This document shows, one piece after another, positions 10,053-13,027 of a DNA stretch of 64,000 nucleotides. The stretch comes from Microtetraspora malaysiensis. Its GTDB lineage: Bacteria; Actinomycetota; Actinomycetes; Streptosporangiales; Streptosporangiaceae. The position numbers and the translations under genes are program-made. Where the stretch lies: NCBI RefSeq assembly GCF_001528665.1, contig NZ_BBYJ01000027.1, forward strand, positions 1-64,000, read 5' to 3'. The notes below the pieces were generated by a model that was not told the DNA's origin, did no database searches, and saw only the letters and a list, made by a program, of their open reading frames with translations. The first letter of the stretch is position 1. Every line of letters starts with the position of its first letter.

Positions 10053-11372
10053 GTGATCTTTAGCGAAGGCAGACGCGGCTTCCGGGCCTACACCACCAAA
10101 CATCTCGACGAGCTTCTCGGCCGCGGCGGCCTCGACGAGCAGGCCCGATTGCGGGTGCGCGCCGTGGCGACGGTCCTGCCGTTCCGCACGAACGCCTATG
10201 TCGTCGACGAGCTGATCGACTGGTCGTCCATCCCCGACGACCCGATCTACCGGCTCGTCTTCCCGCAGGAGGACATGCTGCCCGAGGCGGACGTCTCGCG
10301 GTTGGCGGCCCTGCTGCGCGACGGCGCGCCGGCGGCGCGGGTCCAGGAGGCGGCCCGCGAGGTCCGGATGCGGCTCAACCCGCACCCGGCCGGACAGCTC
10401 GAACTCAATGTGCCCCGGGTGGACGGCGAGTCCGTCCAGGGGCTGCAGCACAAATACCCCGAGACTGTCCTGTTCTTCCCCAAGCAGGGACAGACTTGCC
10501 ACGCGTACTGCACCTATTGCTTCCGCTGGGCGCAGTTCATCGGTGAGCCCGACCTCAAGATGGCCTCCGACGACATCGGCAACCTCGTCGAGTACGTCAA
10601 GGCCCACCCCGAGGTGACGAGCGTCCTCTTCACCGGCGGCGATCCGATGATCATGAGCGAGGCGGTGCTCCGCCGGTACATCGAACCGCTGCTCGGGCTG
10701 GAGCAGCTCGAGTCCATCCGCATCGGCACCAAGTCCCTGGCGTACTGGCCGGACCGGTTCGTCGGCGACCCGGACGCGGACGCCACTCTCAAGCTCTTCG
10801 CCGAGGTGGTCGCCTCGGGCAAGAGCCTCGCCTTCATGGCGCACTTCTCCCACCCCCGCGAGCTCGAACCCGACGTCGTGCAGAAGGCCGTCGAGCGGAT
10901 CCTGGAGAGCGGGGCGACCATCCGCACCCAGGCGCCCCTCATCCGCTCCATCAATGATCGGCCCGATGTCTGGGCTCACATGTGGCGGCGGCAGACCACC
11001 ATGGGCATGATCCCCTACTACATGTTCGTCGAGCGGGACACCGGCCCCCAGGACTACTTCGCGGTCCCCCTCGCCGACGCCCACCGTGTCTTCCGCGACG
11101 CGTACGCCCAGGTCTCCGGGCTGTGCCGTACGGTCCGGGGGCCGTCCATGTCGGCCACCCCCGGCAAGGTCTGCGTCGACGGCGTCACCGAGGTCGCCGG
11201 TCAGCGCGTCTTCGTCCTCCATTTCATCCAGGCGCGCGATCCCGAACTGGTCGGGCGTCCGTTCTTCGCCCACTACGACCCGGACGCGGTCTGGCTCAGC
11301 GACCTGAGACCGGCCTTCGCGGACCGTTTCCCCTTCGAGACCCCCGGCGCCCCCGGCCCGCTCAGCGCCTGA
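10053..11372 (+). CDS. KamA family radical SAM protein (lysine 2,3-aminomutase type)
   Basis: A 439-residue radical SAM, PLP-type aminomutase homologue. The iron-sulfur site is C149-X3-C153-X2-C156 (CHAYCTYCFRW), followed by VLFTGGDPM (GGDP, the SAM-binding region) and a candidate PLP lysine in SATPGKVCVDG near residue 383. Lysine 2,3-aminomutase has PGGGGK at that position, so this protein differs there. The substrate may be lysine, glutamate or another amino acid, or a protein residue as in EpmB. The GTG at 10053 has AAGGAAGG about 6 nt upstream. It is followed by two hairpins and has no partner gene (no EpmA, no lysine degradation genes). Confidence 0.88.
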   Translation: MIFSEGRRGFRAYTTKHLDELLGRGGLDEQARLRVRAVATVLPFRTNAYVVDELIDWSSIPDDPIYRLVFPQEDMLPEADVSRLAALLRDGAPAARVQEAAREVRMRLNPHPAGQLELNVPRVDGESVQGLQHKYPETVLFFPKQGQTCHAYCTYCFRWAQFIGEPDLKMASDDIGNLVEYVKAHPEVTSVLFTGGDPMIMSEAVLRRYIEPLLGLEQLESIRIGTKSLAYWPDRFVGDPDADATLKLFAEVVASGKSLAFMAHFSHPRELEPDVVQKAVERILESGATIRTQAPLIRSINDRPDVWAHMWRRQTTMGMIPYYMFVERDTGPQDYFAVPLADAHRVFRDAYAQVSGLCRTVRGPSMSATPGKVCVDGVTEVAGQRVFVLHFIQARDPELVGRPFFAHYDPDAVWLSDLRPAFADRFPFETPGAPGPLSA

Positions 11373-11500: not shown

Positions 11501-11747
11501 GGATCGCTTCCTTTGATATCCCGATGAAACGGGATTCCTGGTGATGACTGGAAGGTGATCGCTAGTCCTCTGATTTCCGGAAATTCCGGTCATTTGCCCT
11601 GGTAGAGCCCTGGACCTGCATGACGGACCGATCGCCGAGAAGGGTGATAGAAATTCCGTCCGTAGCTGAGTCCTGACCGGCGACGTACGCCGGCACACGA
11701 GGGATAAATTCCCGCTCTCGTGAAATGGGCTATGAACCGGGGGAATT

Positions 11748-12704
11748 ATGAATCGAATCATTAAGGCTGCCGCGGTCCTCATCACCGCCGGCATCGCGGG
11801 CATGTCCGCCCTGCCGGCCCAGGCCTCGGCCGCTGACACCGGCGACGCACAGCTCGCGGCCGTCACGAGGGTGCTCGCCGACGTCCGCGCCGACGTGGTC
11901 GCCGGCGCGACCGGCTCCCTCCAGGGCCAGCTCGCCGCCGTGGCGAACATCGCGGCCCACGCGGACGCGACCGTCAACGCGACGGTGGCGGCCCAACTCG
12001 CCGCGACGGCCAACGTGGCGCTCGGCGCGGTCGCCAACGTGAACGCGAACGTACAGGCCCAGCTCAACGCCGCCGCCAACCTGACGGCGGGCGTCTCCGC
12101 CGCGCTCGCCGCCAACGTGAACGCGAACGTGCAGGCCCAGCTCACGGCCGCCGCGAACATCTCCGCCGGCGTCGCCGCCACCCTCACCGCGAACGTCAAC
12201 GCCGCCGCCCATGTCGCGGTGAACGCGCACGCATTCGTCGCGGCCCAGCTCGCCGTCGCCGCCAGCGCCGCCGCCAACGTGGCCGCCACCCTCTCCACCG
12301 CCGCCACCGTGCCCCTATCCGCCGGTGTGGCCGTCGTCGCGGGCGTCAGGATCCCCGTCGTCGTCCTCGTGGGCGACGTGCGGGCCTTCGTCGCCGCCCA
12401 CGCCGCGCTCGCCGCCAACGTGAACGCGGCCATCAACGTCGGCCTCGTGGCGAACCTCAGCGCCCTCCTCAACGTGAACGTCTCCGTCAACGCCCTCGCC
12501 GGGGTCAGGGTGCTGGTCCCCGGCACGGCCACCACCCTCAACACAGTGAAGTCGACCTCGTCGACCGCCATCACCCGCGCCAACGGCTGGACCAGGACGG
12601 TGACCACGACCGTCGTGCCGTGGAACGCGGTGACCGTGGTCAAGAGCACCGAGACCACCACCCGCACCTCCCGCACGCCGACCTACATCCGGTCCGGCAG
12701 CTGA
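11748..12704 (+). CDS. secreted Ala/Asn-rich repeat protein, unknown function
   Basis: A protein of 318 residues with a Sec signal peptide (MNRIIKAAAVLITAGIAGMS, cleavage probably after ALPAQASAA). The mature part up to about residue 250 is low-complexity, dominated by Ala, Val, Asn and Gln. Residues 97-148 are two 26-residue repeats that start NVNANVQAQL; a decayed third begins at residue 149. Within each repeat polar N/Q and hydrophobic V/A/L alternate, as in an amphipathic beta-strand with an Asn/Gln ladder. The C-terminus (from about residue 255) is Thr-rich and basic. There is no cell-wall anchor, lipobox or transmembrane end. GGGGG lies 6 nt before the ATG and a very strong terminator follows, so it is a single, probably abundant transcript. 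It could be a surface fibre or matrix protein; I recognise no family. Confidence 0.75.
   Translation: MNRIIKAAAVLITAGIAGMSALPAQASAADTGDAQLAAVTRVLADVRADVVAGATGSLQGQLAAVANIAAHADATVNATVAAQLAATANVALGAVANVNANVQAQLNAAANLTAGVSAALAANVNANVQAQLTAAANISAGVAATLTANVNAAAHVAVNAHAFVAAQLAVAASAAANVAATLSTAATVPLSAGVAVVAGVRIPVVVLVGDVRAFVAAHAALAANVNAAINVGLVANLSALLNVNVSVNALAGVRVLVPGTATTLNTVKSTSSTAITRANGWTRTVTTTVVPWNAVTVVKSTETTTRTSRTPTYIRSGS
12036..12191 (+). repeat. two 78-bp in-frame tandem repeats
   Basis: Units 12036-12113 and 12114-12191 encode 26 residues each (NVNANVQAQL...AGV..L.A). They differ at several residues and at silent sites, so the duplication is not recent. Shorter related blocks occur on both sides. 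Confidence 0.7.
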
Positions 12705-12740
12705 GCGATGAGGGAGTGCTGACAAGGCACTGAGAGCACG

Positions 12741-12787
12741 AGAGAGCCGGTCGGCGCCATCCAGGCGCCGACCGGCTCTCTCTTTGC
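12741..12787 (+). terminator. strong intrinsic terminator
   Basis: An 18-bp perfect stem (12741-12758 with 12764-12781) around a 5-nt ATCCA loop, followed by CTTTG. It ends the transcript of the secreted repeat protein, and its symmetry could also stop leftward transcription of the 53-residue gene. Confidence 0.85.
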
Positions 12788-12865: not shown

Positions 12866-13027
12866 TCAGTTGTACGAGCCGCGCAGGCAGGTGCGCCGCC
12901 CTATCTCCGCCTGCAGCCGGGCCATCTGCCAGTGCAGGTCGATGAGCTGCTCGGCGATCAGATTGAACGGAAGCTCCGAGGGGTCTTCGTCGGCCAAGTG
13001 GTCGATCGCCGTCGCGAGGTCACCCAT
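12866..13027 (-). CDS. 53-residue small protein, possibly SOS-controlled
   Basis: A short acidic-to-basic protein that starts MGDLATAIDHLADEDPSELP, continues with a helical segment (IAEQLIDLHWQMARLQAEIG) and ends CLRGSYN. The ATG at 13027 has an excellent GGAGGG site 4-5 nt upstream, which with the protein-like composition supports a real gene. I know no function. The helical middle with regularly spaced Leu/Ile suggests a small dimer or a partner-binding helix. The promoter overlaps a LexA-like operator (13048-13063), so induction by DNA damage is plausible. It lies 65 bp downstream of the PEBP gene and could also be read through from it. Confidence 0.65.
   Translation of the reverse strand: MGDLATAIDHLADEDPSELPFNLIAEQLIDLHWQMARLQAEIGRRTCLRGSYN

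Follow-up and report, generated by a model that had tools for sequence, protein, structure and literature searches.

The gene at positions 11,748–12,704 of the window (the whole 64,000-nucleotide stretch of the Microtetraspora malaysiensis genome that was analysed) encodes a 318-residue protein, here called the ladder protein, in which polar and hydrophobic residues alternate over about 160 positions. With a probability of roughly 0.5, it is a Sec-secreted, amphipathic, beta-structured and self-assembling surface protein, whose role would be chaplin-like although it is not a chaplin. Within this reading, which combines sequence with analogy, export is suggested by the signal peptide, beta assembly by the binary pattern, and the surface role by the likeness to chaplins.

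The gene and its product

The features of the gene and of the encoded protein are as follows.

11748–12704, forward strand: ladder protein gene, 318 aa, ATG start, product predicted to be secreted
11748–11825, forward strand: putative Sec signal peptide, residues 1–26, MNRIIKAAAVLITAGIAGMSALPAQA with AxA site
11832–12311, forward strand: parity ladder, residues 29–188, polar residues on one parity and Val/Leu/Ile mostly on the other
12036–12269, forward strand: three 26-residue repeats, from residues 97, 123 and 149, the first two near identical and the third diverged
12411–12521, forward strand: hydrophobic block after the ladder, residues 222–258, ANVNAAINVGLVANLSALLN...VLVP, conserved in alignments
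12531–12701, forward strand: Thr/Ser-rich C-terminal part, residues 262–318, its length varying among species
12740–12782, forward strand: perfect 19-bp hairpin with a loop of 5, 3' of the stop, probable terminator

The open reading frame has a GC3 of 0.96. Nine of the ten pairs among the five Microtetraspora genes have a dN/dS of 0.13–0.41 over residues 33–184, and the closest pair has 0.81; because of the low values in nine pairs, the sense frame is a real, constrained gene, despite the long antisense ORFs. Antisense frames of the locus and of its relatives also score high in parity (4.2–6.25), so parity is not strand-specific, and the assignment of the coding strand therefore rests on the start, the signal peptide, the leader and dN/dS. 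The signal peptide was read from the sequence by eye and agrees with the preliminary description, in which the product had been called secreted and Ala/Asn-rich; by composition count the mature part (residues 29–318, 290 aa) contains Ala 81, Val 49, Thr 33, Asn 26 and Leu 23, and is better termed Ala/Val/Thr/Asn-rich.

The upstream gene ends 375 nt before the ladder gene and the downstream genes lie on the opposite strand; a single-gene transcript is plausible. The terminator, previously called strong, is partly borne out, since a perfect hairpin does follow the stop, but only TTT comes directly after it, and a terminator scanner that applies a T-tract rule made no call there. Hairpins of at least 13 bp occur within 150 nt of the stop in 8 of the 16 loci checked. 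In other genera the hydrophobic block terminates in Pro-Cys, mostly LVPC; the relatives in groups g23, g69, g72 and g86 carry Cys-x3-Cys close to the start of the mature protein and a single Cys in Val/Ile-Pro-Cys, positions missing from the Microtetraspora proteins, and these cysteines might form disulphide cross-links.

A polar/hydrophobic ladder kept through substitution

When residues are tallied by even:odd position, residues 29–188 of the M. malaysiensis protein give 34:1 for NQDEKRH, 16:2 for Ser/Thr and 6:33 for VILMFYW. The polar counts are 34:0, 33:0, 34:0 and 34:0 in four other Microtetraspora, and range from 31:6 (the weakest) to 29:1 in 17 relatives from other genera; the ladder is kept, at 5:1 or better, in all 21 tabulated relatives, including those with an overall identity as low as 28%. 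A Fourier-type hydrophobicity test, using 18-residue windows against 1000 shuffles, gave z = 16.8 at 180 degrees (period 2) for the M. malaysiensis ladder and −1.2 at 100 degrees; in 15 relatives the 180-degree z was 7.5–14.8, and across all 16 proteins the 100-degree z lay between −1.7 and 1.8. In the M. malaysiensis protein the same test also found period 2 in residues 195–260 (z = 5.5) and none in residues 262–318. A putative secretion signal and a binary pattern that would favour beta structure, two traits of functional amyloids as a kind, are both present in one protein.

With a best 100-residue parity score of 6.43, the ladder gene tops the 203 stop-to-stop ORFs of the window, the runners-up (5.5 and 4.6) being antisense of the ladder locus and the best unrelated ORF scoring 3.5. 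All 17 E. coli K-12 control proteins fall below this score, LpxD coming top with 3.15; the curli proteins CsgA and CsgB score 0.94 and 2.10. The alternation reported in the preliminary description is therefore real, and much longer and stronger than stated there. Its description as Asn/Gln alternation needs amending: polarity is conserved but the Asn/Gln identity is not, since Asp, Arg, Glu, Lys and His appear in relatives. Polar residues that differ from those of M. malaysiensis in eight relatives fall on the two parities as 6:0, 17:0 (L002), 12:0, 13:1, 16:0 (L018), 14:1, 22:0 (L028) and 19:3 (L067), and substituted hydrophobic residues hold parity less strictly, from 4:1 down to 16:7.

Helix or beta structure

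AlphaFold2, given a five-row alignment of close sequences led by M. malaysiensis, predicted a helix at residues 33–184, with a mean pLDDT of 55.9 and a pTM of 0.26 (pLDDT 83–89 for residues 71–120); with L006 as lead and five close sequences, the helix covered residues 30–188, with a mean of 50.0, a block reaching pLDDT 82 and a pTM of 0.25. Structure prediction had been proposed in the preliminary description, and this long helix, which comes from a five-row alignment, is half of the outcome named there as speaking against it. A long single alpha-helix or a helical bundle, forming a secreted rod or a lipid-binding, apolipoprotein-like protein, is on this modelling an unlikely but serious alternative. 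In its favour are also weak matches to the helical family Apolipoprotein (PF01442) in 2 of 18 members, whose best E value, 1.3e-4, is the best weak Pfam match of any member, and the Ala content of residues 33–184 (58 of 152, 38%); mean helix propensity in the ladder is 1.12 against 1.05 for strand, by Chou–Fasman values. Against it, the Apolipoprotein score of the M. malaysiensis protein is 13.5 bits where the cut-off is 90, and its ladder has no 100-degree periodicity, either with ordinary shuffles or with parity-preserving ones in which even and odd positions are permuted separately (z = 0.4); among the seven proteins given the latter test, only L028 reached z = 2.2. A helix, moreover, offers no reason to hold polar residues on one parity over 160 residues and through substitutions. 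For this reason, and because the alignment is shallow, parity is weighed above the AlphaFold2 helix, while the conflict between beta and helix stands. An Ala-rich amphipathic helix had been the first expectation, from the Apolipoprotein match and AlphaFold2, and was overturned by the period spectrum and the parity tables.

The earlier suggestion of a beta, amyloid-like protein consequently fares unevenly: the parity of about 160 residues kept in 21 relatives, the polar substitutions that respect it and the lack of a helical period speak for it, whereas the AlphaFold2 helix and the lack of parity in CsgA, a known functional amyloid, speak against it.

Repeat origin and length changes

The hydrophobic face alternates small and large residues, its mean autocorrelation over groups peaking at lag 4 (0.24), with lags 22, 8, 44 and 26 next, and the DNA of the ladder shows 12-bp periods; these two periodicities therefore suggest that the ladder is built on a four-residue unit, polar-Val/Leu-polar-Ala, and that it had a repeat origin and was later diversified under a parity constraint. 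The three 26-residue copies noted previously are present as listed above, and look like a later local event, because the sequence ANVNANVQAQL of the first copy is found only in M. malaysiensis and M. fusca, the other three Microtetraspora carrying VDVKAATEAQL or VDVRATTEAQL at this position. Eight of the nine diverged relatives differ from M. malaysiensis by ladder gaps of 4, 16, 36 or 40 residues; those of L067 are 3, 7, 4, 4, 10 and 22 (two odd). Among the 118 gap runs in the pairwise comparisons of 11 representatives, 98 are of even length and 20 of odd length, a proportion to be read with the possibility that the aligner favours even gaps. Length change in multiples of four residues (12 bp) is thus a tendency, clearest against M. 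malaysiensis.

These periods and four-residue length changes would equally fit a low-complexity extended spacer or stalk that grew by expansion of a 12-bp unit and carries the C-terminal block outward, its parity being a by-product of repeat origin. Dipeptide-repeat stalks exist in cell-wall proteins. The tail is Thr-rich and variable, and an unrelated secreted protein of another family (G513) ends, at a contig end, in a long (DADV)n tetrapeptide run. This explanation is nevertheless improbable, because neutral repeat decay would erase a parity that here survives substitution (16:0, 17:0 and 22:0 in the relatives cited above), and because in nine of ten pairs dN/dS shows purifying selection on the ladder.

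A soluble, non-assembling even-period beta-helix of the left-handed hexapeptide or bactofilin type, acting as a scaffold, binding or antifreeze-like protein, is very improbable: LpxD, whose fold is a left-handed beta-helix, has the top parity of the controls, and seven of the 18 members have a weak match to Bactofilin (PF04519, a beta-helix; best E 0.018), but the M. malaysiensis protein scores 12.3 bits against a cut-off of 27.9, a lag of 18 residues is not among the leading lags of the hydrophobic face, and PDB chains match the 18-row profile at E 0.76 at best.

Comparison with known systems and proposed function

Searches with the M. malaysiensis protein and 17 relatives gave no Pfam match over a curated cut-off; with the M. 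malaysiensis protein and L018, NCBIfam gave none over a curated cut-off (for the former, no family up to E 1) and PHROGs returned nothing. As far as these searches and that of the PDB reach, the earlier remark that no known family has this pattern holds. Among the literature matches listed, a set whose scope leaves out most subscription journals, neither the ladder family nor its leader is described.

The closest functional comparison is with the chaplins (PF03777), which coat the aerial hyphae of Streptomyces and are described in passages of PMC4255298 as secreted amphipathic coat proteins. Like them, the ladder protein appears to be secreted and amphipathic and comes from a mycelial actinomycete, and a coat role with beta assembly is suggested for it. 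It differs in its length of 318 aa and its two-residue alternation, chaplin domains are encoded elsewhere in the same genome, and the ChpA-C domain is not among the Pfam matches up to E 0.5 of the ladder protein and 17 relatives. Obvious rodlins occur only in streptomycetes, according to a passage of PMC4255298. The rodlins RdlA and RdlB resemble the role proposed here in being secreted and forming a hyphal surface layer; the ladder protein has no NCBIfam match that would link it to them, a comparison limited by the possibility that NCBIfam holds no rodlin model.

Other known proteins share single traits. Curli CsgA is built of repeats some 22 residues long that carry Asn/Gln ladders; it is repetitive like the ladder protein and secreted, as the latter appears to be, but its parity of 0.94 against 6.43 shows that the pattern is not that of curli. 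Bactofilin and hexapeptide beta-helices show inside/outside alternation and a weak Pfam likeness (7 of 18 members), from which the ladder protein differs in scoring below the cut-off, in its signal peptide and in its lack of a prominent 18-residue lag. In silk, a long chain of period 2 presents two faces that differ chemically, and in this the ladder resembles silk-like and designed binary-patterned beta-sheet polymers; unlike these, it is natural, diverged, largely aperiodic and bacterial, and it has a putative Sec signal peptide. Design work on such polymers is cited in PMC2680634, where a passage also says that long alternating polar/nonpolar stretches are selected against, since they drive amyloid formation. 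A family with a signal peptide in which several genera keep such an alternation for about 160 residues would offer a test case from nature, a purpose-made binary-patterned beta polymer. It also tests structure predictors, because AlphaFold2 calls the ladder a helix.

According to the preferred reading of a self-assembling beta-structured surface protein, the chain would be exported by the Sec route and, outside the cell, would take up beta structure (a cross-beta sheet, a film or an even-period beta-helix), one of its faces being hydrophobic and the other hydrophilic. It would then self-assemble on the surface of hyphae or spores as an amphipathic beta layer, rendering that surface water-repellent or cohesive, a chaplin-like job done by an unrelated sequence; length changes mostly in multiples of four residues (12 bp) would keep the two faces in register. 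Chaplin domains were found in all 12 genomes tested, so these organisms would not need another coat protein, which counts against a coat role, and the ladder protein would be an additional coat component.

Relatives and distribution

The named relatives M. fusca, M. niveoalba, M. glauca and Microtetraspora sp. NBRC 16547 encode proteins 79–87% identical to that of M. malaysiensis. The homologue search in Streptosporangiaceae that had been proposed earlier, carried out with a six-row profile, matched 49 of 341 family genomes at E ≤ 0.01 and found relatives in 27 of them at E ≤ 5.3e-12, the signal peptide alone accounting for most of the remaining 22; an additional ladder gene, L067 (genome G243), which the profile did not detect, was located by its position. 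In a class-wide profile search of 394 genomes, full-length matches were confined to Streptosporangiaceae, with two weak matches outside. One of these, L159 (G513:C28), was rejected as a relative, being the different secreted protein with the (DADV)n run and matching at E 3.1e-6 probably by composition; the other, in G544, is marginal (E 7.6e-4, with one internal stop).

A conserved leader upstream of the gene

The DNA from GTGATAGAAAT (11644) to the ATG, about 105 nt, is conserved across many genera, and comprises the following elements.

11644–11658, forward strand: near-invariant leader motif GTGATAGAAATNCNG at the start of the leader, either a promoter element (possibly an extended −10) or part of the 5'UTR
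11644–11747, forward strand: conserved leader or 5'UTR (RNA model R1, a covariance model from alignment A3)
11677–11693, forward strand: leader hairpin 1 (CCGGCG..CGCCGG), 97.1% of cells paired, two of six pairs with both-side changes
11708–11731, forward strand: leader hairpin 2, upstream of the ribosome-binding region, 97.4% of cells paired, one of five pairs with both-side changes

The motif occurs in 29 representative loci, 72 to 298 nt upstream of the ATG (104 in M. malaysiensis). GTGATAGAAATNC without mismatch occurs once in the M. malaysiensis genome (8.82 Mb). With up to one mismatch there are six genome places against four for a reversed control, and a regulon defined by the motif was rejected. 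No conserved −35 element lies upstream of the motif, and a sigma-70-type promoter search at the ladder gene found none.

Alignment A3 holds 23 of the 37 distinct leaders. Both-side changes occupy 10 cells in these 23 leaders against a shuffled mean of 2.9, by a control that ignores relatedness, and sliding of the pairing partners destroys the pairing. Neither the count of doubly changed pairs (3; 44 of 500 shuffles) nor that of further pair types (8; 486 of 500) stands out; of eight single leaders, only three fold clearly more stably than their shuffles (z below −2), and hairpin 2 is imperfect in M. malaysiensis. The support for an RNA structure in the leader is accordingly moderate. The leader has no Rfam match over the gathering score. 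R1 has 45 matches among the 338 family genomes: 41 of these genomes are hit, G240 five times and each of the others once. A search of 296 genomes with R1 gave no match outside Streptosporangiaceae. Synonymous divergence is 0–0.095 in codons 1–27 and 0.06–0.285 in residues 33–184; because of the low values in codons 1–27, a DNA- or RNA-level constraint seems to extend into the coding region.

The leader before other secreted proteins

In G240 one R1 copy precedes the ladder gene, three precede other ORFs, and a contig end truncates the fifth.

L142:1831–3495: Gly-rich PGRS-like protein, 554 aa, with the leader and a like signal peptide
L144:2407–2844 and L143:895–1188: two small proteins, 145 aa and 97 aa, with the leader and a like signal peptide

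The leader and signal-peptide DNA of the four complete copies is 70–80% identical and the next 250 bases are 40–56% identical; duplication of the leader in this genome is clear. The motif with a signal-peptide ORF was also present in 14 of 36 further regions beside a PEBP gene and in all four regions chosen for an N-terminal match. By blastp (E < 1e-3) the mature parts of 43 leader- or motif-bearing proteins fall into ten clusters, of which the 22 ladder proteins form one, and in alignment the signal peptide is similar across all ten although the mature proteins are unrelated. The full leader R1 precedes the ladder cluster and five others; the remaining four, including group g4, which is presumably Nonomuraea-like, have no more in common than the motif and a similar signal peptide, and R1 does not extend to them. 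In genus g35 one and the same position next to the PEBP gene, with the same leader, holds a ladder protein in G243 and an unrelated 148-aa protein in G034. The 20 non-ladder proteins scored have no parity (0.5–2.7). In genus g5 (L074:920-, L076:951-), the motif lies about 300 nt before His/Glu/Gln/Ala-rich repeat proteins of 705–812 aa that have a signal peptide.

From these sequences, the leader and signal peptide look like a re-usable export cassette that serves a variety of exoproteins in other genera. In genera with a single copy, exchange of the cassette and extreme divergence of the mature part are both compatible with the data. A broader proposal, put forward tentatively and somewhat doubtful as a whole, is that the naturally evolved period-2 beta-sheet chain of about 160 residues, built on a four-residue unit, represents a new class of exoprotein polymer, exported by a cassette of leader (a structured 5'UTR) and signal peptide that Streptosporangiaceae re-use to swap surface proteins at the same chromosomal place; venom peptides likewise retain a signal while their product varies. 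Such a cassette with swapped products would show one route of surface diversification in filamentous actinomycetes.

Genomic neighbourhood

Upstream of the ladder gene in Microtetraspora lies a KamA-family radical SAM gene (10053–11372 in M. malaysiensis), whose product falls below the cut-offs of all six NCBIfam models matched, lysine, glutamate and arginine aminomutase models among them. Proteusin-type RiPPs (polytheonamide-like) have alternating D-residues, and dedicated maturation enzymes would be expected beside their precursor; the ladder gene has this one divergent radical SAM neighbour in Microtetraspora. The putative Sec signal peptide argues against the likeness, and the KamA-family gene does not adjoin the ladder gene in every genus. 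It is present in the flank of 17 of 35 loci (L001–L035, a set in which some places are counted twice) and absent from the 1500-bp flanks of L016–L032 (g69, g72 and g86), which keep the ladder. Because of this absence no functional tie is seen, and such a link was rejected, the KamA-family gene also adjoining unrelated proteins in the same slot.

Downstream, on the opposite strand, follow a 53-aa ORF, a YbhB/PEBP-family gene and an ABC exporter-like pair, which resembles polysaccharide or teichoic-acid ABC exporters and scores below equivalog cut-offs. The YbhB/PEBP-type gene is in the flank of 33 of the 35 loci (all but L033 and L034).

12866–13027, reverse strand: 53-aa ORF (MGDLATAIDHLAD...), between the ladder and PEBP genes, start picked by eye

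Among the matches listed, this ORF is 70–98% identical in the loci of other species.

The chaplin domains of the 12 genomes are mostly tandem arrays in single frames of about 600–755 aa. In M. malaysiensis, seven chaplin matches lie in one 618-aa frame (G000:C24:79166–80347), on another contig than the ladder gene. Across this genome and the 11 relatives, such multi-chaplin arrays reach up to eight tandem ChpA-C matches.
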